64,000 nt of DNA from contig NZ_AZAJ01000001.1 in the NCBI RefSeq assembly GCF_000504205.1, positions 310,001-374,000 on the forward strand, read 5' to 3'. How positions within the stretch are numbered: position 1 is the first letter of the stretch; each line of letters opens with the position of its first letter. Of the stretch, positions 5,251 to 51,501 are shown piece after piece. The notes beneath the pieces were generated by a model. That model saw only the letters and a list, made by a program, of their open reading frames with translations. It was not told where the DNA came from and made no database searches. A program made the position numbers and the translations under genes. This DNA comes from Methanolobus tindarius DSM 2278. GTDB lineage: Archaea > Halobacteriota > Methanosarcinia > Methanosarcinales > Methanosarcinaceae.

Positions 5251-8200
5251 ATGAAGTACAGACAGAAAACAATATTGACTGGTGCTTTAATAGTGCTGGT
5301 ATTAATTATGGGTGTCCCGTTTACGGCAGCAACATATAACTTTTCAAACGGACCGGGCGAAAATGACATCCTTGTAGCAACGGCATTCACGAATGAAACG
5401 AAAACATATGGAACACTTGAACAAATATCAAATGCTCCTGATGGGGACTTCACATTTTCAGAGTTGCCAGACGGAGAGTATAAGCTTTATTTTTCATACT
5501 GGATTCCTGAAATGACTGGCTGGGGTGTGGGAGATACCACGGTCACTATTGAAAACGGAGAAACATTAGAAAATCTGTTGTTTAATGGAACTCTTCTATA
5601 TGGAGACAACGACTCTTACTTATGGCCTCAGGCTGAAGCATTGTATGACAGCATAGTCAATGGAACCGTAATTCCTGTATCAGGATCAGGTTCTATATCA
5701 GGGACAGCAGGCTTCTTTGATTCCAGCGATACCGCCACAGATTACATGAAATTTGCAAGGGGAGCTGCAATCGGACTATGGAAAGTACAAGAAGAAGAAG
5801 AAGAAGAAAATGTGCTTCCTGTAGCAAATTTCAGCTCAAATGTAACCGCAGGCAACCCACCTCTGACCGTGCAGTTCACTGACAATTCAACTGGGGCCAA
5901 TAGTTGGTCATGGGATCTAAATGGTGACGGAATAGAGGATTCAAATGAAACAAATCCGAAGTTCACATATACAGAGACAGGTACTTACAACGTAAGCCTT
6001 ACTGTGAGCAATACAGGAGGTAGTGATACCGAAACAAAATCAGATTACATCTACTTATGTAATCCGCTATTCCAACCTGGTGAAAACGATATCCTGGTAG
6101 CAAAAGGAGTTACTAATGCTACGAAAACATATGGTTCTTTTGAGAACATATTGAGTTCCTCTGACGGAGACTTCGCTTTCTCAGACTTGCCTGACGGAGA
6201 GTATGAGATTTATTTCTCATACTGGATTCCTATAATGGCTTCCTGGGGCGTGGGCAAATTACCGGTTACCATCGAGGATGGGCAAGCCGTGGAAGGCCTA
6301 TTGTTTAACGGGAGCACGCTGTCTAATGACGACTGCTCATTTATGTGGCCCCAGGCTGAAACACTGAAGGATAAAATAGATAATGGAACTGTAACCCCTG
6401 TTTCAGGATCAGGCTCCATATCAGGAACAGCAGGATATTTTAATAGCACTGGCGCACCCTCCGCCTACATGTACTTCGCAAGGAATGCCTCCATAGGACT
6501 ATGGAAAGTGGCAGAGGAAAAGGAAGAGGAAACTGAAGTAAATGTATCTCTGGCAAGCTCCACATTCCTTGGAGGAAACGGTGATGAATCCATAACTAAT
6601 GGAAATAAAGTGAGCGTAGCCAATGACGGAACTGTGTATGTAATAGGCAGCACCGACTCGACAGACATTCCTGTAACAACAGGTGTCTATCAGACATCTC
6701 TGGCCGGAAGTACCGACCTGTTCATTGCCAGGTATAACAGCGATATGTCTGAACTGCTTGCATGTACATACTTTGGCGGAACTGGATCAGAAACGAGAGG
6801 CTGCATCAAAATAGGATTCGATGGAAGTGTATATGTGCACGGTAGTACTACATCCAGTGACCTGCCTGCTACAGGATCATATTCAACAATGCAGAGTGGC
6901 ACGAATACTTTTGTAGCTAAGTTCGACTCTTCCCTGAGCTCACTGCAAGCCTGTACAAACATGGGAGGGTTGGGTCATGATTACGCATATGCCATCAATG
7001 TCCTGGATGATGAAATATACATAACGGGGTCGACAAAATCTGTGGTAATGGCTACTGCCGGAGCATATCAGACATCTTATGATTTCGATAGCGAGGATAT
7101 CTTTGTAGCCAAATTAAACAACTCACTTGGAGTGATAGCATATACATACCTTGGAAGTGACGATGATGAGGTAGGTGTTGATATCGAATTCGGAAGTGAT
7201 GGAACCGTGTACCTGTTAGCTGATGTTAAAGATAATGGTATGGCTACCACCGGAGCATACGATGATACAAGTAATGGAAACTACGATACTTTTGTAGCTA
7301 ATTTCGATTCATCCCTGAGTACACTACTCGCAGGCACTTATTTCGGAGGGGGCGAGGATGAAAGATCAAATGATCTGGAAGTCGGAAGCGATGGATGCAT
7401 ATACATATCCGGTAGGACTAAGTCAGGTGTTCTGGCGACTTCCGGGGCATTTGAAACAGAAATATCAAATACAAGCACCTGGGAGGGATATGTAGCCAAA
7501 TTCGATAGCTCTCTGGAAACACTGTATGCATGTACGTATTTTGGTGGCAATGACAATGATTACCTGTCTTCTGTTGTTGTAGCTGATGATAATGTATTCA
7601 TCACAGGATATACAGAATCTATAGATATACCAACTACGACATCCGGAACGAACAGCGGTGATAATGATGCATTTGTGAGCTGGCTCAATGATGACCTCAG
7701 TACATTGCTGTACAGCACATATTATGGAGGTAGTGATAGTGAGACTGCACATGGATCAGTAATTACCGAAACCGGTAATCTCCTTCTCTGTGGGCAGACT
7801 GGTTCAGTCGATCTACCCGTTGAAAACGCAGTAGATGACAGTTTCAATGGAAGCAGTGACCTGTTTGTGTCCCGGTGGAGAGTTCTGGATGAAAGTGAAC
7901 CAAAACTCTTCTTCAGCCCGGAGGATACAACACTTATAGACGGCCAAACAACCGAGATAGCCATCAAAGTAAGCTCCCTGCCAGATGGCCTCTCTGGCTA
8001 TGAACTCACTGTGAATATCGCTGACTCTGCAATTGCCCAGATTGTGGACATCACATATCCTGAATGGTCAACGATCACTGATAATTCATCCCTTCCAGGC
8101 AGTTCTGTTTACCTGAAAACAGTTGACCTGGAAAGAGATGTTCAGGTAGATGCCACAGGCGTTATACTTGCCACTCTGACTGTGGAAGGTAAAAAAGCAG

Positions 8201-38478: not shown

Positions 38479-39099
38479 TTAAGTAGAATCATTTTCCCTG
38501 TACATTTTAGCAAGCGGGTCTTTTCCCTGGGGAAACATTGCACTGAAAGGTTCGAATTTTCCAAGTTCTTCAACTGTGCAGAAATGCATGCCATCATCTG
38601 CACCCATCATCATTAAAGGACGGGCTTTGTCCACATTGCATAATCCAGTCTCATCATATACTTCATCTTCAACTTCCAGGTGGACAACTTTTCCCATAAT
38701 AAGTATGTAGCTGGCTTCTTCATACAGTTTGAAAAGTTCACACTCCATCCATGCATAAGATCCTTTTATTCCGGGAGCACTGATCTTTTTTGATGGTTTT
38801 TCCTCAAGACCTGCAAATTCAAATTCATCCTGATCGGCAGGAATCGCTTTTGCAGTTGGTATAACCTTGTCTGCAAAATCTGCACCGGCAAGATTCACGA
38901 CAAATTCTCCTGTTTCTCTGATATTGTCAAGCGTGTCTCTTCTTTTTGCCGTTGCGATGCATATAAGATCAAGAGGTCTTAGTACCGGCATTACGCAGCC
39001 ATACGGAGCAATGTTTCTTACACCTTCCTTACTTACCGTAGATATGAAAGCAACAGGAAGAGGCATTACAGATTCTTTTTTGAATGGTTTTAATTCCAT
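38479..39099 (-). CDS. Flavin reductase-like / FMN-binding split-barrel protein
   Basis: The ATG at 39099 follows GGTGA by 5 nt, giving 206 residues. The sequence has the split-barrel flavin reductase pattern: PLPVAFISTVSKEGVRNIAPY near the N-terminus, then RRDTLDNIRETGEFVVNLAG, then FKLYEEASYILIMGKVVHLEV. Methanogen members bind FMN and act as small electron carriers or reductases; the specific partner is unknown. The 209-nt gap before the FmdE-like gene suggests its own transcript or the head of that operon. It could reduce an imported ferric or cobalt complex. Confidence 0.88.
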   Translation of the reverse strand: MELKPFKKESVMPLPVAFISTVSKEGVRNIAPYGCVMPVLRPLDLICIATAKRRDTLDNIRETGEFVVNLAGADFADKVIPTAKAIPADQDEFEFAGLEEKPSKKISAPGIKGSYAWMECELFKLYEEASYILIMGKVVHLEVEDEVYDETGLCNVDKARPLMMMGADDGMHFCTVEELGKFEPFSAMFPQGKDPLAKMYRENDST

Positions 39100-39714
39100 A
39101 GTTTTCACCATTTTATTTACAGATTTTAGTAATACCATAATACAATAAATAGCTATTAGTTGTTATTTTTATGTTTATTCGTAACATTGATATATGAAGA
39201 AATACTATTTAGAACCAGACAGGTCGAACACTATCACAACAATAACTAGAAGTTCTCCGAAATATATTCTGTATAGCATGTTAGTGGTTCACGCATAACT
39301 GCTGTGTTTGGCCTGTTAATATTGGCCAATTTATTTACCAAGACCTTCCACTTTAATTGGCCAATCCTCCTATTCTACGGAAAAAAGGCTTCAGATAATT
39401 GAATCTATAGGATTAGTAAAGATTGCGGATTTTACAGAAAATATACTACAGTGACGTATAAATAGCCGTAAAAATACATAGAGAATTGCAATTAAAAATA
39501 GTTCTTCCGTATAAGAGTAAATTAGCATTATAATATAATTACATCAATTTGTAGCATAGAAACTAAGATGTATAACTAAAATAAAGCACTATATATAGTA
39601 TTGTTACTACTTCTTAATAAATTATTTCTTTAGAAATATAGATTCGTAGGTAGGTTTCCAGGTATTTTGCAGGTTGCAGAATTTATGAATACGGATACAT
39701 CAAGGAGTTACCAA
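39100..39714. other. 0.6-kb gene-less region before the ArsR-type regulator
   Basis: An A+T-rich divergent region. It holds two exact ATTGGCCAAT palindromes (39321-39330 and 39356-39365), TATA-like sequences near 39590 (ACTATATATAG) and the AAGGAG site of the regulator at 39702. No gene or RNA is recognised. Confidence 0.5.
39321..39365. repeat. Two identical palindromes ATTGGCCAAT, 35 bp apart
   Basis: ATTGGCCAAT occurs at 39321-39330 and again at 39356-39365, with a partial TTGGCC just before the first. The centre spacing of 35 bp is a little over three helical turns. Paired sites like these are typical operators. They lie between the flavin reductase-like gene and the ArsR-type regulator. 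Confidence 0.5.
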
Positions 39715-40011
39715 ATGGTTGAAAAGACTAACATGATTAAAGTGGTAGGTAATGAAACAAGATTAAAAATACTGGATTCACTTTCTTCCAAAGATAAACA
39801 CATCACAGAAATTGCAAATGAGCTTGGAATTTCATGTACAAGTATTTCCAAACACGTACGGGTGCTGGAAGAAGCGAAGCTTGTTGAAAGAAATATATTT
39901 GGTAAAAGTCATGTTCTTTCACTTCCAAATAAAGTGAATAAAAAAATAATTAATCAAGACTACTCATCAGATTTGGAATTGTACATTCTGGATAATTATT
40001 ATTTGGTTTGA
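39715..40011 (+). CDS. ArsR-type winged-helix regulator (upstream of the cbiZ operon)
   Basis: The best start is ATG 39715 with AAGGAG 7 nt upstream, giving 98 residues; two earlier in-frame starts lack a site. The protein is almost all winged helix: NETRLKILDSLSSKDKHITE, then ANELGISCTSISKHVRVLEE as recognition region, then LVERNIFGKSHVLS. No cysteine pair of the classical metal site is present, so the signal is unclear. A related regulator lies past the other end of the operon (49.1 kb), matching in NETRLK, SKH and the FGKxHVLS wing. It is the obvious candidate to control the operon that begins 222 nt downstream. Confidence 0.85.
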   Translation: MVEKTNMIKVVGNETRLKILDSLSSKDKHITEIANELGISCTSISKHVRVLEEAKLVERNIFGKSHVLSLPNKVNKKIINQDYSSDLELYILDNYYLV

Positions 40012-40233
40012 TAAAACCAACTACTATTTTTCACCACCAATTCAGAGTCATTCACACTCCGGCAAAAATGCCATTCAAAATGCCATTATTACTTAAAAAG
40101 CTAATAGCTATGAGGTAAAATCCACTCTATAAATACAACTTTTTTCAGATGCTCCGTGTTAATTTTGGTATGAGATTTTTCAATTTAATATTACATCATC
40201 CATGAAAAATACCTTGTTAACCGGTGATTGAAC

Positions 40234-41454
40234 ATGAATGGAAAAACAGATGAAAAAACTATCATCTCATCTATGGAAAACAGCCAGGTTGAAGTAAAAA
40301 ATGATAGCTGGCTTTCAAAAGAATTATTATGGCAAACATCTGGTGGAGAAAGGGTTTTCCTTCATGAGAAGTCGATTGTCGTGGAACTGCCATCTGGTAG
40401 AAATACGCTCACTACATCCTGGTTAAATGGAGGATACCGGAACGATATTCGCTACATATATAATCATCAGGTTCTGCATGAATCTGATGTTGACCATGAA
40501 GTTTCCTCTCTAGAAGGAGGAGGAATTTCAGCTTATGCTGCGCTGGTTTCAAAAAAGCTGGGACTTGATCCACTATATTCTACCGGTCTTATGACGGCAG
40601 CTAATATGAAAAACGTGGCAATAGTAACCCACAATTTCAGAGATCTTGAAGTTACAGCAATCATCACCGGTGGAATTGAAGTCAATGGGGGACGTGCAGG
40701 GGATCCTGCAACATATTACCAGGAAAACGGACAGTTCACCATGATTCCCGGGACAATTAACACCATTTTGCTCATCGGTGCCAATGTTCCGCATTATGCC
40801 ATGGTGAACGCGGTAGTTACAGCTAGTGAAGCTAAAGCCGTTGCAGTAAATGAACTTATGGCTCCCAGCCAGTATTCTCAGGGAATCGCCACCGGGTCAG
40901 GAACAGATATGATAGCTGTGGTTTCTGATAATACCAGCCATCTGTATCTTGACGACTCCGGAAAACATTCCAAACTCGGGGAGCTCATAGGAAAATGTGT
41001 GAAAGAAGCTACCAAAAAAGCCCTTGCACAGCAATCTGACCTTACATCACAGACCCAATGCAATATGTTAGTGCGGCTTGAAAGGTTTGGAATTGATGAA
41101 AAAAAATACTGGGAAGAAGCTTCCTCCATGGAAGGGGAAAACAGGAAAACGCAATTTATCGAAGAGCTCAGGATTATTGCAAAAAATCCTGCACTTGTGA
41201 GTCTAACAACATCCCTGCTCCATATTGTTGATGAAATATCATGGGAATTGCTTCCTGAGAAAGCCGGCAAAAAAGCTGCACTTTCACTTATAAAAAGTAT
41301 TCCTGAAATTTTACCTTGCGATAAACAACCACCATTTTACAAACTCCTCAACGAAAAAGACAGTATACTCAACAACTGGGTACGTATTACTGCCTGGGTC
41401 TGTAAAAATGGAAAATGTTATGCAGAAGAAAATCACAGCGAGAGCAACAATTAA
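40234..41454 (+). CDS. cbiZ: CbiZ-family adenosylcobinamide amidohydrolase with C-terminal extension
   Basis: Starting at the ATG at 40234 (GGTGA 7 nt upstream), the protein has 406 residues. Residues about 25-260 are CbiZ-like: TSWLNGGYRNDIRYIYNHQV, then STGLMTAANMKNVAIV, PGTINTILLIGANV, ASEAKAVAVNELM, and ATGSGTDMIAVVS. CbiZ cleaves the amide bond to the aminopropanol side chain of (adenosyl)cobinamide, giving cobyric acid, and is the archaeal route for salvaging corrinoids. About 140 further residues, helical and ending in a KNGKCYAEEN tail, are not part of the usual enzyme of about 240 residues. It heads the operon with a BtuFCD-type importer and nitrogenase-like proteins. This points to a corrinoid or related tetrapyrrole as the imported ligand. 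Confidence 0.88.
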   Translation: MNGKTDEKTIISSMENSQVEVKNDSWLSKELLWQTSGGERVFLHEKSIVVELPSGRNTLTTSWLNGGYRNDIRYIYNHQVLHESDVDHEVSSLEGGGISAYAALVSKKLGLDPLYSTGLMTAANMKNVAIVTHNFRDLEVTAIITGGIEVNGGRAGDPATYYQENGQFTMIPGTINTILLIGANVPHYAMVNAVVTASEAKAVAVNELMAPSQYSQGIATGSGTDMIAVVSDNTSHLYLDDSGKHSKLGELIGKCVKEATKKALAQQSDLTSQTQCNMLVRLERFGIDEKKYWEEASSMEGENRKTQFIEELRIIAKNPALVSLTTSLLHIVDEISWELLPEKAGKKAALSLIKSIPEILPCDKQPPFYKLLNEKDSILNNWVRITAWVCKNGKCYAEENHSESNN

Positions 41455-41488
41455 AATAAATTACCCAGTATGAACCGGAGAGAATTCA

Positions 41489-42667
41489 ATGAATAGAAAT
41501 TATGTTTTTGTTTTGCTTATACTTTTGATCTGTAGTCCCTTATCAGGATGCATAGGAGACAGCAGTCAGGAAACAAATAATCCTGTCAATGAAGACTACA
41601 ATTCTTCAAAAGATTATTTTCCTGACAAGATAGACATAGAATATGCACAGGGATTCACAGTTGAATATCATAATAATTACAAACTTGTAACTGTGATGGA
41701 CTCTGTTACAAACAATGAATATTCATACATACTTGTGCAAAAGGGAACTCCTGTTCCTGAGCATGATGAAGATTCCGTTGTAATTGAAATACCTGTAGAA
41801 AGTGTTGCTACTCTTTCCACAACACATTTGCCAGCTCTTGAGATTATCGGAGAGACTGACAAACTCAAAGCTGTCAGCTCTTTTACATATATAAATTCGG
41901 TTCCTGTAAGGCAAATGATTGAAGAGGGAACTATAGAAGAAGTAGGAACCGGCAGCTACATGAATACCGAAGCAATGGTCAGGATAAATCCGGATCTTGT
42001 TTTTACTCTCACTACAGGTGTCCCTTACGATGACAAACATATAGACAATCTGATTGATATCGGGATAAAACCCGTAGTTGTTGATGAATACAAAGAAGAA
42101 TCCGCACTTGCCGGAGCAGAATGGATCAAGTTCATATCCCTGTTTTTCAATGCGGAAGATAAAGCTAATGAATATTTTGATCAGGTTGCAAATGACTATA
42201 ATGAACTTGCAGAAATGGCAAAATCTGTAGAAAACAGACCGGTTGTAATGAGTGGAATGGCATGGGAAGGTACATGGTACGTACCTGGTGGGAACAGCCT
42301 GATAGCCCAGTACATCGATGATGCCGGAGCTAGCTATTTCTGGAATGACAATAATGACACAGGTACTGTAACCCTTGATTTTGAAGCAGTATTTGACATG
42401 GGTAAAGATGCTGATTACTGGGTTTCTTCAGGAACCTGGAACAACTTAGAGGAGCTTGAAGCTGAAGATTCTCTTTACATAGAATTTAATTCAGTAAACA
42501 ATGGAACTGTCTATTCCAGTTACTACAAGGTCAACGAAAACGGAGGGAACGACTATTATGAATCCGGAGTTGTGAGACCTGATCTGGTACTGGCTGATTT
42601 TGTAAAAATGTTCCATCCCGAATTAGTTCCTGACCATGAAATGGTTTATCATAAGAGGATAGAATGA
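41489..42667 (+). CDS. Lipoprotein BtuF/FepB-type binding protein of the cbiZ operon
   Basis: The 392-residue protein has a signal peptide with lipobox PLSGC (cysteine near 21), then an acidic Ser/Asn spacer and a class III binding fold. Telling segments are KLVTVMDSVTNNEYSYILVQ, VESVATLSTTHLPALEIIG, VRINPDLVFTL, and VMSGMAWEGTWYVPGGNSL in the second lobe. It should deliver ligand to the FecCD-type permease whose ATG overlaps its stop (ATGA at 42664-42667). Ligand identity is suggested as corrinoid-like only by CbiZ. Confidence 0.9.
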   Translation: MNRNYVFVLLILLICSPLSGCIGDSSQETNNPVNEDYNSSKDYFPDKIDIEYAQGFTVEYHNNYKLVTVMDSVTNNEYSYILVQKGTPVPEHDEDSVVIEIPVESVATLSTTHLPALEIIGETDKLKAVSSFTYINSVPVRQMIEEGTIEEVGTGSYMNTEAMVRINPDLVFTLTTGVPYDDKHIDNLIDIGIKPVVVDEYKEESALAGAEWIKFISLFFNAEDKANEYFDQVANDYNELAEMAKSVENRPVVMSGMAWEGTWYVPGGNSLIAQYIDDAGASYFWNDNNDTGTVTLDFEAVFDMGKDADYWVSSGTWNNLEELEAEDSLYIEFNSVNNGTVYSSYYKVNENGGNDYYESGVVRPDLVLADFVKMFHPELVPDHEMVYHKRIE

Positions 42668-43767
42668 AAAAAACTGAAAAACAAGATTTGAATAAAAAAA
42701 TGCAATTAAAGAATCATTCACAGAGAACAGCACTGCTCCTGGGATTCTTTCTTATTGCATTGTTTTTTTTCTTTGTGTTAGACCTTGTATTCGGATCAGT
42801 GAACATCCCACTTGGAGAAACACTTTCAGTAATACTCGGGAATACTCCGGTAGATGATTCATCAAAGATAATAATAATGGATCTGAGACTTCCAAGGGCA
42901 TTAGCGGCTGTTTTTGGTGGTGCTGCACTGGCAGTTGCAGGTCTTCTGATGCAGACATTATTCAGGAATCCCCTTGCAGGACCATTTATTCTTGGAATCA
43001 GTTCAGGTGCAAGCCTTGGAGTTGCCATAGTAATTCTTCTATTTGGAGGAGTTTCTGCAGCAACACTCCCACAAATGCTTCGAAGCCTTGGTTTTCTGGG
43101 TAGTGCCACAGTTGCCATGGCAGCATTTCTTGGATCTTCAGCGGTGCTTATGATAGTACTTTTCGTATCGCGGAAAATCCAGAGCAATGTCACAATTCTC
43201 ATTTTAGGACTGATGTTCGGTTACATCACAAACGCCCTGGTTACAATCCTTATACACTTCAGTGACCCTGAAAAAGTAAAAGCATTTTCAGAATGGACTT
43301 TTGGTACTTTTGATATCAGATGGACGGAAATAAGCATACTTGCCCCCGTGATTATAATCGCCCTGATATTTGCATTTTTACTTACAAAGCCCCTGAATGC
43401 TTTGCTGCTGGGCGAAGAATATGCTACCAGTATGGGAATGAACTTCAGCAAAACACGGAGCTACCTGATAATTATCACAGCCCTTCTTGCAGGTGTTGTA
43501 ACTGCTTTCTGCGGACCAATCACTTTCCTTGGCGTGGCTGTTCCACATCTTTGCAGAGGAATTTTTGTCACTGCCGATCACAGGATACTGGTACCGGGAT
43601 GCACATTAATCGGAGGAGGACTTGCATTATTTGCAGATATGATAGCACATCTTCCGGGAAGTAGTCTTACTTTGCCGTTAAGTTCAGTTACATCAATGCT
43701 TGGAGCACCTGTTATCATATGGGTCATACTTTACGGTAACAAACTTGGAAGAGGTGTTTCCGTTTGA
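42664..43767 (+). CDS. FecCD/BtuC-type permease of the cbiZ operon
   Basis: A 367-residue permease with some nine or ten helices. Motifs: IIMDLRLPRALAAVFGGAAL, LMQTLFRNPLAGPFILGISS, GASLGVAIVILLFGG and FCGPITFLGVAVPHLCRGIF. It overlaps the binding-protein gene by 4 nt and the ATPase gene by 4 nt (TTGA), so translation is coupled through the operon. Together these three genes make a type II importer separate from the doubled one at 25-32 kb. Confidence 0.93.
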   Translation: MKKTEKQDLNKKMQLKNHSQRTALLLGFFLIALFFFFVLDLVFGSVNIPLGETLSVILGNTPVDDSSKIIIMDLRLPRALAAVFGGAALAVAGLLMQTLFRNPLAGPFILGISSGASLGVAIVILLFGGVSAATLPQMLRSLGFLGSATVAMAAFLGSSAVLMIVLFVSRKIQSNVTILILGLMFGYITNALVTILIHFSDPEKVKAFSEWTFGTFDIRWTEISILAPVIIIALIFAFLLTKPLNALLLGEEYATSMGMNFSKTRSYLIIITALLAGVVTAFCGPITFLGVAVPHLCRGIFVTADHRILVPGCTLIGGGLALFADMIAHLPGSSLTLPLSSVTSMLGAPVIIWVILYGNKLGRGVSV

Positions 43768-44864
43768 AAGATGCACCTCTTATATCAACATCAGGCCTTT
43801 CAATAGGTTACAAACACAGGAACAAGGAATCCACAATAGTCTCCAGTAATCTTAATTTGGATTTGATGCCTGGAGAACTTGTCTGTCTTATTGGTCCAAA
43901 TGGTGCCGGTAAATCAACTTTAATAAGAACACTTATTGGAATGCAACCCGGTATTTCAGGTGACGTACATCTTGCAGGAAAATTACTGAGTGATTACAGT
44001 GCCATAGAAAAAGCCAGGGTTTTAAGTGTGGTATTGACATCACAGGTATCAATTTCACATTTCAGGGCTTTTGATGTTGCATCTTTAGGCCGTTATCCGC
44101 ATACAGGATGGTCAGGCACTTTATCAGAAAAGGACAGGGAAATAGTATCCTATTCATTAGCAGCAGTTGGTGCCAGTGAACTTTCCTCACGTTACATGTC
44201 AGAACTAAGTGACGGAGAAAAACAGAAAGTGATGATCGCACGTGGACTGGCCCAGGACCCTTCAGTACTTATTCTTGATGAACCAACTGCATTCCTTGAT
44301 ATGCCACACAAAATAGAGATAATGAGAATTCTTAAATCACTTTCACGTCATCCGGGCAGAGCTGTTCTGCTTTCGATTCATGATCTTGATATTGCCATGC
44401 GAACAGCCGATAAAATATGGCTTTTTAATAAAAATGGAGATTTTTATTCAGGTGCTCCTGAAGATCTTATTTTAAAAGGTGTTTTCGGATCGGCTTTTGA
44501 AATGGGAGGAGTACATTTTGATAATAAAAAAGGGACATTTGTTATTTCTCCTGAACAAAAAGGAAATGTCACCCTCATAGGGGAAGACAATAATGACAAT
44601 AACGAATTTATCTGGACATCTCATGCACTTGAACGTGCAGGATACAGTATTTGCAGTGATGGTAACTGTGATATTACTATTGAGATTCAGAATAACAATG
44701 GAGATACCTGCTGGAGATATTTGAACCATACAGCAGAACATGATTTCTTTTCCATTGCAGATATGATACAGTTCCTGTGCAGGACACACGAAAAAGATAG
44801 CAATGAAAAGCAGATAACTGATAATTTCTCCACCAGGCTTTCAGGAGGAATCAGTCTCCAGTGA
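43764..44864 (+). CDS. FecE/BtuD-type ATPase with unusual C-terminal extension
   Basis: A TTG start at 43764 overlaps the permease stop. The 366-residue protein has Walker [16 protein letters not shown], signature [17 protein letters not shown] (the second Gly of the usual SGG is Asp) and Walker [15 protein letters not shown]. Family members have 250-270 residues. Here about 100 residues follow, with two or three beta-strand-like segments, [18 protein letters not shown] and a helical end ([18 protein letters not shown]). The added domain could sense a ligand or contact the next-encoded NifHD-like protein, whose GTG overlaps its stop codon. Confidence 0.9.
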
Positions 44865-47080
44865 TCCAGATTGCAATCTACGGAAAAGGTGGTATCGGCA
44901 AATCCACCATCTCAGCAAATCTTTCGGCTGCCCTTGGAAACAGGGGAAAACGTGTACTACAGGTAGGGTGTGATCCTAAACATGATTCCACCAGACTTCT
45001 TCTGGATGGAGAATCAATACCTACTGTACTGGATTATATCCGCGATACTTATCCAGAACATCGAAAACTTGATGACATACTTTTCAGAGGATATGCAGAC
45101 ATAGCCTGTGTAGAAGCCGGAGGTCCGGAACCCGGGGTTGGATGTGCAGGCAGGGGAATCCTGAGCACTTTTGAAATCCTTGAAAAACTGGGAATTGAAG
45201 AAATACCTTTTGATATCAAGCTCTATGATGTCCTGGGGGATGTTGTATGTGGAGGATTTGCAGTTCCTATAAGAAAAGAATATGCTGATGCCATATACAT
45301 TGTAAGCTCAGGAGAATACATGGCACTGTATGCTGCCAACAATATTCTTCGCGGAATCAGTAATTTTGATGATAATTCACCCCGGGTTGCAGGAATTATC
45401 CATAATAGCAGGGGACTGGAGCATGAAAATGAAAAAGTAAGAGCCTTTGCCGATGCCGTTGGATTACCAGTGGTTACTTCGATTCCCAGGGATGAATTGT
45501 TTGCTGAAGCTGAAAAAGAAGGATGCACAGTTATACAGGGATATCCTATGTCTGTACCTTCATTCTTATTTAAGCAACTTGCAGATCATGTTGAAAAGGT
45601 ATCTAATGAGGACATCAGTCTTTTCAAAGCAAATCCGCTTAGCAATGAAGAAATGGAAAAGATAGTTCTTGGGAGAGTTCATAGTTTTAAACAGAATAAA
45701 AACAATTTAGCTGCAAGTCAAAAACCACTGCACTTTGAAATACCTGAGAAAAAACAAAAATCCCTGGTAAATAAGAAAAACCATTTTTTAACAAAGAATG
45801 TAAAAAACAAAAAACCACTTCAGGGATGTTCATTTGCGGGTGCTGTCACTGTAACTTCCAGAATAACCGATGCACTGACAATAGTTCATGGTCCCGGAAG
45901 CTGTGCACATATTGCATCCCATTTTCTCAATAACTCGCTGCTTAACGCCAGTTCAAGATATGGAATTGTTCCCTCAGAAAGTGAGGGAAAAAATCTTGTT
46001 TCTACTGAGATGGGTGAAAAATCCTTCATCTTTGGAGGAGTTGACAAGCTTGCTATGTGCATTGAAGAAGCCTGTATGAAAGGATGGAATACCATTTTCG
46101 TTGTCACTACATGTCCTTCGGGACTTATAGGGGATGATGTCGAACAGGCAGCATTAAGAGTGAAACAAAAATTCCCTGAAACAGATATACTCCCAATAGA
46201 AGTAGATGGTAATCTTGCAGGTGATTTTTCACAGGGAATTGTTGAAGCATATAAAATAATTAGCAATATGATAGACCCGGTCATTAAAGAAAACGAAGAT
46301 AAATCCCTAGTTAATATTGTAGGGGAAAAAACACTGTCAGGAAATCTAAATTCAAATTATGGAATTATTAAAGAACTTCTTGGAAGTATAGGAGTTGAAG
46401 TCAATTGCCGTTTTGTGTCAACTACAACTGTTGACGAAATCAGGAAATTCAAAAGGGCTTCATTGAATATTCTGGCACATAACGACGATTCTGGCACTGT
46501 TTTAAAGAGATTATTGGAATCAAATGCAGGTGTCGAATTCTTTGGTCTTCCGTTTCCCATAGGTTTTAATGAAACTGCTGAGTGGCTGGATCTACTTGCA
46601 GATCGCTTTGATACTGAAATAAGATCAGAAGAATTAATTGCCTGCCATAAGAATTTATATTTTTCCGAAATCGAAAGCCTGCGTCTTATTCTGAAAGGAA
46701 AGAGAGTGATAATAAGTTCTTTTTCCTTGAATCTTGACTGGATAATTGATACAATCATAGATCTTGGAATGGAACTGGTAAAAGTAGGCCTGATTGCATC
46801 ATCATATGATGATTTCAGAAGCAAATATATTGGGATATTGCCATTGGAATATGATTATACTACCGAAAAAAGGCAAAAGGATATAGAAGCACTTAACCCT
46901 GATCTTGTATTATCAAATTATCCACCTATGATGACAAAAAATGGAGTTCATCACGATGCCATACCTATTTCTCCTGATGTAGGTTTTTATAGCGGACTTG
47001 TAATGGCCAGACGATGGGGAACACTCATGAGACTTCCGGTTCTAGAAGGATGGAAACTGGATGGAGTTGACGTGTCATGA
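44861..47080 (+). CDS. Fused NifH-NifD-like protein of the nitrogenase superfamily (probable tetrapyrrole-type reductase)
   Basis: A GTG start overlaps the ATPase stop (GTGA). The 739-residue protein joins two modules. Residues 1-265 are NifH-like: P-loop GKGGIGKS at 8-15, CDPKHDST at 37-44, and both [4Fe-4S] ligands, C95 in GVGCAGRG and C130 in DVVCGGFA. A basic linker (about 270-318) leads to a NifD-like half with three cluster-type cysteines: C323 (LQGCSFAG), C348 (HGPGSCAH) and C418 ([11 protein letters not shown]). The C-terminal part ends with SPDVGFYSG and lacks the FeMo-cofactor histidine context. H and D are separate proteins in nitrogenase, BchLNB, BchXYZ and CfbCD, so this fusion is unusual. 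It should pass ATP-driven electrons to a substrate held with the K-like partner. Context (CbiZ, importer) suggests a corrinoid or other tetrapyrrole. Confidence 0.88.
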
Positions 47081-48366
47081 CACTAACAGCAGATGCATTT
47101 ACCGGTTCACTGCTGGCAGTGGAAGGTATTAAAGATGCAGCAGTTGTATTAAACGGCCCAACAGGTTGTAAGTTCTACCATTCACATATTTCCGATTGCC
47201 AATACCCAAGAGCTTCCTCTTTTGACCCGCTTGGCTATACAGAAGAATTCTATTTCGGCCAGCCACGGGTACCATGCACCTATCTTGAGGGTGATGATTA
47301 CGTTGCCGGCTCAACTGAAAAACTACGGAGAATTCTCCCTGCTATTGCAGCAAAAAGTGATGATCTGCTTGTGATCTTAAATTCACCGGGAGCTTCTTTG
47401 ATAGGAGATGACCTTAAAAAGTTCATTGATTCTGCCGGCCTGTCAAACCGTTGTATAGCTATTGAGAATGCTGGATATTCATCACCTGTCTGTGAAGGAT
47501 TTGAGCAAACTGTAATAGAGATCCTCAAATGGATGAATCCTGAAAAGAATTTGAATAATTCAAATCCGGTAAAGGTGAATCTTGTTGGAATCTCACTTTA
47601 CAATAGTAACTGGGACAGCACAGTATATGAATTAAGAAGAATTCTTTCGTTTTTGAATATTGAGATCGAAGCTGTCATTTGTGCCGGAACAAGTTTTGAG
47701 GAACTAAAGAAATCCACATCTTCTGTATGTAACATTGTAGTTTTTCCGGAATATGGACTTAAAATTGCAAAATGGTATGAAGAAAAACTTGGCATCCCAT
47801 ATGTTTTATCCCCGGCAGGTGCTCCAGTTGGATATGATGCAACTGAAATATGGATTGAGAAAATTGCATCGTTTATGGAGCTGGATTCATCTCATGCTAT
47901 CGAAATTTTAAGAAATGAACGGAAAAAGCATTATCATAAAATCTCACGTTTTCATTCTCTTACAGGCCTTCCAAAAGGTGCAACGTTTACCATCAATGGG
48001 GATAGTTCAGTTGTTTTGCCTTTAACAAAATGGCTGTATGAATATCTGGGAATGGCACCGGTTGGTGTAAAGATATTACCGGGATCTAAACCTGAGATTG
48101 AAAGTCAGATTATTGATTTTCTTGAAAAAACAGGATTTTCAGAGTCCTGGAACAAGTTTTGTGACGATGAACCGGTTGATATCGTAATTTCCGACGGGCA
48201 CACAATCAGGATGATACAGGAAAAAAGCCTGTGTAAAAAAGGTATCGAGATTGCTATGCCATCATCAGGATACTTGAATTTCCTGCCAAGAACATATGTT
48301 GGAATTAATGGCGCCTTGTTGTTACTGGAAGAAATATTCAATGGCTTAAGGAGGAGACCATTATAA
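47077..48366 (+). CDS. NifK/BchB/BchZ-like partner subunit
   Basis: The ATG at 47077 overlaps the HD stop (ATGA). The 429-residue protein aligns with the beta-type subunits of the superfamily through [16 protein letters not shown] (C31), [17 protein letters not shown] and [12 protein letters not shown]. Only C31 matches one of the three P-cluster cysteines of NifK; the first ([13 protein letters not shown] context) and third ([10 protein letters not shown]) positions have none. Three cysteines from D plus one from K give the single four-ligand cluster seen in BchYZ-type enzymes. Extra cysteines C41 and C67 are present. It is the last gene of the operon and has a terminator 163 nt on. A role in nitrogen fixation is unlikely. 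Confidence 0.85.
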
Positions 48367-48528
48367 ATTTGTATGTTAACACCCTTAATAATTACAAAGC
48401 ATTTTATTATTTCTTCTGGCGAAGTCGAAGTAAGTCATGGTTTTCTTTAGATAAAAATGCAAGAAAAAATGTGTGATTACATCTGCTAACTTGAATGTTC
48501 TTGCATTTAGAAAACAGAAATATTTGAT

Positions 48529-48573
48529 ATAGCAATTACAATCGTTTTCAGATTGTAACTGCTATCTTTTTTT
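48529..48573 (+). terminator. Terminator of the cbiZ-importer-NifHDK-like operon
   Basis: ATAGCA-TTACAATC (48529-48543) pairs with GATTGTAA-TGCTAT (48551-48565) with one mismatch; CTTTTTTT follows directly. It lies 163 nt after the last stop codon. Confidence 0.75.
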
Positions 48574-48603
48574 AGATTAATTGGTTAAATCACTTTCATG
48601 CTA

Positions 48604-48819
48604 TTAGCTTTCAAACCATAAATGAATCAAATACTGTAGTCTTTCAGTAGTTATTGTTTCATTTGTATTCTCAAATGACTGGTAATTCAGCCAGTAATGT
48701 ATAGCTTGCTGAAGTTCATTTGTACTTATAAGCAGATGCCTGAAAGAAAATTCGTTGGCTGGGTTTAAATTGTGGAAGGTGTAGATGAAGAAAAAAGGGG
48801 TTGCCAGCCAACCGGCCAA
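48604..48819 (-). pseudogene. Isolated C-terminal module of a PQQ/PKD-type surface protein (gene remnant)
   Basis: The last 45 codons encode STNELQQAIHYWLNYQ, a short spacer and TTERLQYLIHLWFES. This matches the C-terminal module of the 913-residue surface protein (GDEFHAAVKCWL, GDRFQELIHDWL) and of the partial protein at the window end (SDEFQQAIHCWI, GDRIQILINKWL). The upstream codons show no propeller or signal sequence and no ribosome-binding site, so only the 3' end of a former gene seems to remain. It is a dockerin-like two-helix unit. Alternatively it is a stand-alone small protein, which I consider less likely. Confidence 0.6.
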
Positions 48820-49120
48820 ATAACGTGTTGACAGAAAAATATTGGTTGCAATGAAGGATGGTCAACTACATTATTTGGCTCCTGCGACTTAATTGGTAAT
48901 TGTAATATTTAAGCGTATGATTTGCGATAATATCTGTTAGCTTAAACTATAATGATTTAAGTTTTTTACTTTACTCTGTGATTTCAAACTTGATTTAGTT
49001 TCATTCTGGCTGACAGCCACTTAATTTTTATCCAAAACATGCCAAATCATTGTTTGTTTTTAAGCTAATAAATAAAAACAATACGAAACATATATATCAT
49101 CATAAATAATCATTCATATT
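48820..49120. other. Intergenic region before the second ArsR-type gene
   Basis: GCCAAATAA (48815-48823) and TTATTTGGC (48871-48879) form a 9-bp inverted repeat with a 47-nt spacer at the edge of the gene remnant and could mark an old rearrangement. The rest is A+T-rich without a gene. The promoter of the ArsR-type gene is at its right end. Confidence 0.45.
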
Positions 49121-49121
49121 A
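49087..49121 (+). promoter_or_regulatory. TATA box placed for a leaderless transcript
   Basis: ACATATATATC (49087-49097) is centred about 28 nt before the ATG at 49121, and there is no ribosome-binding site. This spacing puts the transcription start at or next to the start codon. Confidence 0.55.
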
Positions 49122-49447
49122 TGTCCTATGAAAATGTCAAAATCCTCAATGCACTTGAAAATGAAACACGTTTGAAAATGTTTAAACATATAAATAAAGA
49201 GGATATGCACATCTCAAAAGTGGCAAGAATATTAGAGATTTCTATTCCTGTGGCATCTAAACATGCCAGTATACTTGAAGATGCAAATCTTATCGAAAGA
49301 AAAATTTTTGGAAAAACACATGTCCTTTCCAGCAAAAATAAAAAATTATTCAAATTTGCAGAGGAATCAAAAGAAGTAATAACTAAGGATTATCAAAAAA
49401 TATTCAATACAGTAGAGTCACTTCGAAGAATTGCATCAAATGACTGA
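49121..49447 (+). CDS. ArsR-type winged-helix regulator (downstream of the NifHDK-like operon)
   Basis: The 108-residue protein is a winged helix of the same subfamily as the regulator at 39.7 kb: NETRLKMFKHINKEDMHISK, then ARILEISIPVASKHASILED and LIERKIFGKTHVLSS. It has no metal-binding cysteine pair. No ribosome-binding site precedes the ATG, and a TATA box sits about 28 nt upstream, so the mRNA is probably leaderless. It may regulate the cbiZ operon, or the pilus-associated gene that begins 19 nt after its stop and probably shares its transcript. Confidence 0.82.
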   Translation: MSYENVKILNALENETRLKMFKHINKEDMHISKVARILEISIPVASKHASILEDANLIERKIFGKTHVLSSKNKKLFKFAEESKEVITKDYQKIFNTVESLRRIASND

Positions 49448-49466
49448 GTTTCATAATTGCAACTTG

Positions 49467-50090
49467 ATGAAAATGTTTAAAAAACTTTTAATATGTATTA
49501 TTTTCACGATCTTCTGCATTTACTCTGTAGCAAATGTCAGCGCTGTAGGAGTCGGTGTTAGTCCTGCAAACATGAGCTTTGATGCACATGTAGGAATAAC
49601 GGAGTATCAATCTCTTTTTGTAATAAACGACGGACAAAGCATATCAGATTACAGGGTATATGTTGATGACCAATACGTAGACTGGTTTTCTATATCACCC
49701 AACAACTTCACACTCCAGCCTGGAGAACATAAAGAAGTGATCATTGGACTTAAACCACCTGTTTCAGCAAACGGAAACTATGATATGAAAGCCTATGTCA
49801 TAGCTTCAGCACCCTCTTCTGACTTTGAAGTCGGCAGTGGAATAAAGATACCGGTAAAAATAAATGTCTCAAATAAAGGCTTATTCTACGCTTCAGGAGC
49901 CATATTAGTACTGGCTGTCGGAATGATACTTACCGGAACCAGATGGAATAGAAAAAGAAAACAGAATCGGGTTAATTTGAATACTGCTGAGATTAGAATT
50001 GCTGATACAGCGGTTGTATCCTCTGCTGTTGATGAAGTTACTAATTGTGATTTGGGCTTGGGTTCTGGATTGGAAGACGAGATTGATTAA
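49467..50090 (+). CDS. Secreted/membrane protein, pilus-locus accessory (paralogue of the gene at 55.7 kb)
   Basis: Starting at the ATG at 49467 (an ATG two codons later is an alternative), the protein has 207 residues. It has a signal peptide (about 1-30), then a single Ig-like domain beginning VGVGVSPANMSFDAHVGITE and containing FTLQPGEHKEVIIGLKPP. The membrane helix LFYASGAILVLAVGMILTG comes next, then a charged cytoplasmic tail of about 45 residues. The domain resembles the abundant-in-archaea COG1470/NEW-type beta domains. The protein at 55.7 kb shares the domain (VSVGASPYSLEF, FDLSPSMTKEVTV) but lacks the helix and tail. The two bracket the pilus ATPase/membrane genes, suggesting roles in pilus assembly or anchoring. 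Confidence 0.7.
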   Translation: MKMFKKLLICIIFTIFCIYSVANVSAVGVGVSPANMSFDAHVGITEYQSLFVINDGQSISDYRVYVDDQYVDWFSISPNNFTLQPGEHKEVIIGLKPPVSANGNYDMKAYVIASAPSSDFEVGSGIKIPVKINVSNKGLFYASGAILVLAVGMILTGTRWNRKRKQNRVNLNTAEIRIADTAVVSSAVDEVTNCDLGLGSGLEDEID

Positions 50091-50328
50091 CAAACAGGCG
50101 TATTGTAGAAATCCTTTTGAATACCTTTTACATCTACAATTCGTAATTCCACAAGTTCCAAATAATGAATAAACTATCATTTAGAAGGGCAGTGATGAAG
50201 GAACATGCCTCTTTTAGCGGGTCGTTTGTTGTTCTTTGTTTACTCTGATTTAAGAGAACTAATAGAAACGCAAGGTTTTGCAAAACCTGGCATTTAGCCT
50301 CCTTAAAATAATAACTACAATCCTTTTA

Positions 50329-51501
50329 TCAAGGAATCGTAATCATAACATCAGAACTACTCATCCTAACGCTCATATTATAAAATGATGCTCTGACAAG
50401 ACCATCGTCCAGCATTTCAACGTCACCCTGAGTTGAAAGGTAACTGTACCAGGCACTTGGATACTCAGAGTATATTGTAAGATTTGTTACTTCTACAAAT
50501 GGGTAAGTTTTTTCTTCATGGTCTTCAACCTGAAGGTTTACGGTGGAAATGCCATTTCCGCCCATGCTGTCGGCAACTCCAACCACATTGAATGTCTGGA
50601 TATTCAGAAGCTTTGTATCTTTATCCACTGTGATGAAAGGTCTGGATCTTACCAGTGATTCATTGCTTGTGGATTGCTGCAATATTACAGCTCCGTTTTC
50701 AAAAATGAAATCCTGATCTATCCAGAAGTTATTTGATGAACTGTATTTAAAAGACCCTGTTGTAAAATTCATAATTTTATTTGAAGTATATTTTATCTCA
50801 GAATATTCATATGGAGGTAATTTTTCGTATTCTATCAGGAACGAGCCGTCAAGCATGGTGAGAGTAAATGGCTTATCAGCATCCTCTAACATGTCAGAAA
50901 AACCATATATCGGACCCATGATATCGAATGTGAAATTCTCATCAGTAGCTACTACAGGAGTTGAAACTTTACCATAGAAGAACTGTTTGCCATTAAGTTC
51001 CGTGTCAATAAGCATTGTACTGTCATCAGTCCATTCAGCCTCAAGCGTGTTGTTACCATCTATTATAACTTCATAAGTACCTGGATAACCTCCATCCCCT
51101 ACAAGGAAAAAAGATGAAACAGATGTCACATTATTCAAAGGATAAAATGAATCAAAGCGGTTCTCAGGTTCTGCTACATTAATCATTGAAATATTTAACC
51201 AGCTACTGTTTGGATCAACTGTCAATGTTCCACTTGAAGAAACAGAGGGACCATATGGCATTTCCTTGCCTCCTAAGGGAATCTGGACCTTTTCATTTGA
51301 ACTTCCTGAAGCAGCAAGTGACGCTATTTTTACAAAACTGTCTCTCACTTCCTGCATATGCTGGATGTCATTTTCAGAGCCCAGTGAAGGTACATAGTAA
51401 GCATTGATGGCAGAAATGAACGTTGTTAGGACTGCAAGAATCAAAATTGCAGCTATTACCGTTGAAACTGCATCGCTTGATGAAACCAGTTTTCTGATCA
51501 T
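50329..51501 (-). CDS. Large pilin-like protein with class III-type N-terminus
   Basis: The 390-residue protein begins MIRKLVSSSDAVSTVIAAILILAV, with SSSDAVSTVIAAILI forming the charged-then-hydrophobic pilin N-terminus cleaved by archaeal prepilin peptidase. The long outward part (about 45-390) is beta-rich with repeated FxxGxxxY segments and resembles DUF7289-type archaeal proteins. It is the last gene of the leftward pilus operon. Its start overlaps the stop of the small pilin-like gene before it (ATGA, 51498-51501). It is probably a tip or minor subunit rather than the main filament protein. Confidence 0.75.
   Translation of the reverse strand: MIRKLVSSSDAVSTVIAAILILAVLTTFISAINAYYVPSLGSENDIQHMQEVRDSFVKIASLAASGSSNEKVQIPLGGKEMPYGPSVSSSGTLTVDPNSSWLNISMINVAEPENRFDSFYPLNNVTSVSSFFLVGDGGYPGTYEVIIDGNNTLEAEWTDDSTMLIDTELNGKQFFYGKVSTPVVATDENFTFDIMGPIYGFSDMLEDADKPFTLTMLDGSFLIEYEKLPPYEYSEIKYTSNKIMNFTTGSFKYSSSNNFWIDQDFIFENGAVILQQSTSNESLVRSRPFITVDKDTKLLNIQTFNVVGVADSMGGNGISTVNLQVEDHEEKTYPFVEVTNLTIYSEYPSAWYSYLSTQGDVEMLDDGLVRASFYNMSVRMSSSDVMITIP

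Follow-up and report, generated by a model that had tools for sequence, protein, structure and literature searches.

A conserved fusion of an Fe protein with a component-1 subunit in Methanolobus tindarius and its relatives, and its linkage to corrinoid genes

With respect to the 64,000-nucleotide stretch of the Methanolobus tindarius DSM 2278 genome analysed here (NZ_AZAJ01000001.1, positions 310,001 to 374,000; hereafter the window), the open reading frame at 44861-47080 raises the question whether an Fe protein and a component-1 subunit of the nitrogenase superfamily are genuinely joined in one polypeptide and, if so, what kind of enzyme they form and on which substrate it might act. The host genome is a single contig of 3.15 Mb, its relatives are the Methanosarcinaceae, and all features described below lie on the forward strand. 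The frame starts with GTG and encodes 739 amino acids in a single ORF (HD), of which residues 1-271 (44861-45673) form an Fe-protein (NifH-like) module, H, residues 272-321 (45674-45823) a linker of 50 amino acids without conserved sequence, and residues 322-739 (45824-47080) a component-1 (NifD/NifE-like) module, D, which was aligned to NifE and NifD. The Fer4_NifH domain (PF00142, E 9e-90), including the P-loop GKGGIGKST, spans residues 3-269 and the Oxidored_nitro domain (PF00148, E 8e-68) residues 323-721, so that both domains are full-length; as a previous sequence-only reading had claimed, they lie in one chain. The cysteines which that reading had listed, C95 and C130 in H as well as C323, C348 and C418 in D, are found at these positions and are all invariant in an alignment of 12 sequences. 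By its P-loop and the invariant C95 and C130, H belongs to the Fe-protein superfamily (NifH/BchL/CfbC), its closest solved chain being the NifH of 6nzj (E 7e-72).

A search of relatives recovered the same fusion from 24 other genomes. It is present in 21 of the 111 genomes of the family, at 43-84% identity and with a frame that is always open and runs to about 730-805 residues, the protein of Methanolobus psychrotolerans being 79% identical to that of the window; a phylum-wide sample of 392 genomes added four more fusion-bearing genomes from two further families, giving a total of 25 genomes from at least eight genera and three families of the Halobacteriota. In the same sample, a full-score homologue of the downstream partner gene (K, see below) was found in 22 genomes, and all 22 carry the fused HD; the bit scores of this search drop from 470 for the fused sets directly to 124 or less. 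Split H and D orthologues were not found among the 392 genomes, and hence the arrangement by which the fusion might have been unmasked as an artefact, separate H and D genes with the same flanks in close relatives, is absent. Two apparent long fusions, in genomes G246 and G220, turned out to be two genes, H and D, whose intervening stop codon had been read through, and no fused relative was found among plasmid records. For H the ratio dN/dS is 0.05-0.12 and for D 0.16-0.17; the linker, at 0.18-0.41, evolves faster than the domains while its frame is kept. That HD is a sequencing or assembly error, a lost stop codon or a pseudogene fusion is thus ruled out for practical purposes by the 24 other genomes, the frames being open throughout and the purifying selection. 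An internal start for D was likewise discarded: codons 269-330 of the window's gene contain no in-frame ATG, GTG or TTG, and a separate start of D in this region is therefore impossible.

The ATG of the partner gene K (NifK/NifN-like, 47077-48366) overlaps the stop codon of the fusion by 4 nt. Scores against PF00148 of 229.6 bits for D and 151.5 bits for K, at a cut-off of 28.6, identify both as component-1 proteins. To compare cluster ligands, the fused sets of the 25 genomes were aligned with the host's own NifD, NifE, NifK and NifN. In D, the three P-site cysteines are kept in 25 of 25 fused proteins. Of the three beta P-cluster cysteines expected of a NifDK-type enzyme, K retains only C31, at the position of NifN C44 and NifK beta-C95, the other two being replaced by an invariant aspartate (D6) and an invariant proline (P104). 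The column of the FeMo-co cysteine (C269 in the organism's own NifD, C275 in Azotobacter) is occupied by H, Y, K, C, F or D in the 25 fused proteins, and around the FeMo-co histidine column (Azotobacter H442) the C-terminal region aligns poorly. What is left is a 3 + 1 set of cysteines, three from D and one from K, which is the ligand arrangement of the [4Fe-4S] site of NifEN. By its ligand pattern HD-K is accordingly a nitrogenase-like enzyme closest to NifEN, and identity with nitrogenase itself was rejected on account of the FeMo-co cysteine and the beta P-cluster ligands. The earlier description as a NifH-NifD fusion hence stands as far as the joining of an Fe protein to a component-1 subunit is concerned, whereas the label NifD was too specific, given the variable FeMo-co cysteine and a K without two P-cluster cysteines. 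The same ligand logic has been applied before, and such proteins have been called unlikely to reduce N2 (PMC3464626). Further cysteines are conserved as well: C126 and C386 of K, to which nothing corresponds in NifK, NifN, BchB or BchZ, are invariant in the 25 genomes, and C67 of K and C516 of D are nearly invariant.

In phylogenetic trees the H sequences of the fused sets group in a single supported clade, as do the D and the K sequences, and all three clades lie apart from the organism's own NifHDKEN and CfbCD, from BchLNB and BchXYZ, from a Treponema set and from others; since the basal branches are long and weakly supported, the trees were used solely for the monophyly of these three groups and not to name their nearest kin. 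The NCBIfam models agree in placing the system outside the named families. Against nifH, H scores 314 bits (cut-off 394) and, with its best-scoring model, CfbC, 332.9 bits (cut-off 402); D reaches 126 bits with nifD (cut-off 654) and 132.6 bits with nifE (cut-off 505), D and K falling outside the NifE and NifN clades; the scores for BchL/N/B/X/Y/Z stay far below their cut-offs. Each likeness to a known system comes with differences. NifEN shares the 3 + 1 cysteines, but the position of its L-cluster cysteine is variable in HD, the clades are separate and the host has its own NifEN. DPOR (BchLNB) and COR (BchXYZ) share an ATP-dependent Fe protein, a [4Fe-4S]-type component 1 such as that predicted here and neighbours from tetrapyrrole metabolism, but neither is fused, and K has Cys31 where BchB has an aspartate ligand. 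CfbCD of F430 synthesis shares the methanogen host, the best-scoring H model and, putatively, a tetrapyrrole substrate, but CfbD is a single-subunit component 1, whereas two component-1 subunits are present here; moreover, the host has its own cfbCD and the clades are separate. MarK of the methylthio-alkane reductase MarHDK is the best solved relative of K (9d9u_C, E 1e-29), but Mar keeps the ligands of P-cluster and cofactor (PMC12552129) and is not fused. Three nitrogenase-family systems thus reside in one genome, namely HD-K, nifH-I1-I2-D-K-E-N and cfbCD (the latter two at L106/L107).

As regards the linker, a basic segment of about 45 residues had been claimed; in the window it is indeed basic (13 K + R and 2 E in 50 residues), although its length is 50 and its basic character is not conserved. 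Across the fusions its length ranges from 40 to 113 amino acids: Methanolobus and its closest relatives have linkers of 45-50 residues, Methanosarcina with its relatives has longer ones of 68-113, and the two other families span about 40-78. The composition is basic in the first of these groups and acidic or proline-rich in other genera. Because length and charge vary, the linker appears tether-like, and it is plausible, judging from the sequences, that it acts as a flexible tether holding the Fe-protein module near its partner. The 1:1 complex proposed earlier is correct insofar as H and D occur 1:1 in the chain, but it does not amount to one functional Fe protein per D, since the Fe protein is a homodimer. 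An assembly (HD)2K2 would contain two H chains; unless these pair with H chains of other complexes, they would amount to a single functional Fe-protein dimer shared by two catalytic halves. AlphaFold models built from two-sequence alignments had a mean pLDDT of 31.5 and 36.7 and were not used as evidence.

The best clue to the function of HD-K is its corrinoid-gene context, which had escaped the earlier reading. In Methanolobus, HD and K are the last two members of a run which is headed by an ArsR-family regulator (39667-40011; in the same place in L039-L042) and continues, as a tight series with 4-nt overlaps, with CbiZ, an adenosylcobinamide amidohydrolase domain with a C-terminal extension (40228-41454; PF01955, E 8e-57), a BtuF-like substrate-binding lipoprotein (41489-42667; PF01497), a BtuC/FecCD-type permease (42664-43767; PF01032, with BtuC as best NCBIfam match, below cut-off) and a BtuD-like ABC ATPase (43764-44864; best NCBIfam match 'corrinoid ABC transporter ATPase', below cut-off), whose stop codon overlaps the GTG of HD by 4 nt. 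No Rfam riboswitch match was obtained in 39000-50500. Downstream of K and ahead of the next ArsR-family gene lies the remnant of a CbiK-like gene, comprising about its last 19 codons (48391-48447; tblastn, 63% identity over 19 amino acids, E 0.001); an alignment of the DNA picks up again, at 84%, immediately ahead of the stop codon of CbiK, and in L039 and L040 an intact gene occupies this site. In the window the gene has been deleted, leaving a scar at 48378-48447. As the window's genome lacks a CbiK-like gene and a nearby CobN, neither is essential to the system.

In L042, L045 and genomes of the two other families the run also comprises ChlI, ChlD, CobN and the CbiK-like gene, and an extended version with ChlI, ChlD, a CbiR-like TIM barrel, the CbiK-like gene and CobN is found in Methanomicrobiales-type genomes and several Methanosarcinaceae. 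CobN of the cluster passes its NCBIfam cut-off. The CbiR-like protein (327-349 residues) is a TIM barrel of the AP-endonuclease-2 kind with a weak match to CbiR (E 6e-5, below cut-off), a cobamide remodelling enzyme (PMC7733943). The CbiK-like gene occurs in seven of the 111 family genomes, all seven of which have the fusion (Fisher's exact test, p = 3e-6, uncorrected for kinship); among solved structures its product is closest to CbiK and to FetB, which binds heme. Compared with the three active-site residues of the cobaltochelatase CbiK of Salmonella and Desulfovibrio, one histidine is kept and the other two residues, a histidine and the glutamate, have given way to others in each of the nine cluster copies (L039, L040, L042, L043, L045, L046 and L088-L090); a functional CbiK chelatase was therefore rejected, and with two of three active-site residues missing, the role of the protein may be to bind a tetrapyrrole and not to insert a metal into it. 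The Methanosarcina copies consist of HD and K alone, with none of the corrinoid neighbours, and the corrinoid link is thus not universal, which limits generalisation. Unfused nitrogenase-like HDK sets adjoin FecCD-type importers, too, in two archaeal loci (L092 and L093) and on a Treponema plasmid (L111), i.e., this link is recurrent.

To our knowledge, all known [4Fe-4S]-only component-1 systems in a tetrapyrrole context (DPOR, COR and CfbCD) reduce tetrapyrroles, as is established (PMC12552129). Since the predicted cluster type and the context are the same, HD-K might best be understood as an ATP-driven enzyme that reduces a corrinoid or a related tetrapyrrole, resembles DPOR and CfbCD, has no FeMo-co-type cofactor and uses one Fe-protein dimer per two catalytic sites, a reading to which a probability of about 50% is assigned. 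H would carry a [4Fe-4S] cluster and hydrolyse ATP, while a second [4Fe-4S] cluster would be held jointly by D, with three cysteines, and K, with one, the linker keeping the Fe-protein module beside its partner and, in an (HD)2K2 complex, one Fe-protein dimer serving two catalytic sites. With no FeMo-co-type cofactor, the substrate would probably bind straight in the cavity, as in DPOR. Going by gene context, this substrate would most likely be a corrinoid or related metallo-tetrapyrrole imported by BtuFCD and processed by CbiZ and, where the clusters are fuller, further by the CbiR-like hydrolase, the CbiK-like protein without chelatase residues and a CobN-ChlI-ChlD chelatase. Against a corrinoid it may be held that FecCD-type importers can also carry siderophores or heme and adjoin other nitrogenase-like sets. 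Only tentatively, and at clearly less than even odds, might HD-K be regarded as a new branch of nitrogenase-like reductases acting on corrinoids in cobamide salvage or dismantling, with a tethered Fe-protein dimer serving two catalytic halves.

The gene context would also be compatible with an action on the metal alone, by which the Co(II), or another metal, of imported corrinoids is brought to a low-valent state for adenosylation, remodelling or metal removal and the ring is left untouched. An ATP-driven Fe protein can supply the very low potential that the step from Co(II) to Co(I) demands. The linkage to corrinoid genes is accounted for in the same way, and CobN-type chelatases can serve metal release, as does BtuS in Bacteroides (PMC6460266), BtuS-like proteins having been discussed for Methanosarcina barkeri (PMC10846266). 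However, the majority of archaea that have CbiZ and BtuFCD do without HD-K, and the fusion is absent from 90 of the 111 family genomes; this proposal is considered rather unlikely. Still less credit is given to a reduction of iron compounds, i.e., a ferric siderophore or heme taken in by a FecCD-type importer: permease and ATPase match Fe-siderophore importers as well, other nitrogenase-like HDK sets have iron-type importers next to them and the CbiK-like protein resembles FetB, but the presence of CbiZ and of a CbiR-like gene speaks for cobamides (PMC7733943).

A small non-tetrapyrrole substrate, as in methylthio-alkane reductase or the isethionate enzyme, would be in line with MarK as best solved relative of K and with the Methanosarcina copies, which have no corrinoid genes beside them. 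Mar, however, uses the ligands of a P-cluster and of [Fe8S9C] (PMC12552129), whereas two cysteines of K and the FeMo-co cysteine position are not kept in HD-K, and such a substrate is doubtful. That HD-K is itself a nitrogenase, or serves the cell's nitrogenase as a cofactor scaffold, is very improbable: family membership, the NifEN-like cysteines and the presence of nifHDKEN in the genome speak for it, but the FeMo-co cysteine and the K cysteines are not conserved, no nitrogenase equivalog cut-off is reached, and the genome encodes its own NifDK and NifEN elsewhere. The preferred reading remains that of a corrinoid or tetrapyrrole reductase.

The fusion itself was already known. A fused NifH-NifE followed by NifN was mentioned in 2012 as 'data not shown', such fusions having been filtered out before tree reconstruction (PMC3464626), a 'fused nifH/nifE' was noted in a Methanomassiliicoccales genome (PMC4153887), and composite and split forms were listed as cluster 443 for Methanosarcinales and Methanomicrobiales (PMC11237513). 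These reports describe the same architecture in the same kind of organism, but give no sequence analysis, gene context or function of the fusion. With one H-D/E frame followed by a K/N-like gene, the window shows the arrangement that defines the group of PMC3464626, and by architecture and type of organism HD-K almost certainly belongs to the same or a sister group. As no corrinoid link or function of the fusion was found in the open-access literature, the additions made here are the recognition of a conserved subfamily, the pattern of its ligands and its link to corrinoid genes.

Docking and release of the Fe protein are central to nitrogenase work, and here the Fe protein is leashed to its partner across at least eight genera; HD thus offers a natural system in which half-site behaviour and the dissociation step can be probed. 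Should HD-K act on a corrinoid, it would be a new member of the few nitrogenase-like enzymes with a known role and would represent a new step in the vitamin B12 chemistry of methanogens. In one of the 25 sets (L041, genome G043), about 63 internal residues of K (6503-7591) are deleted in frame, with HD left intact, possibly reflecting a decaying system.
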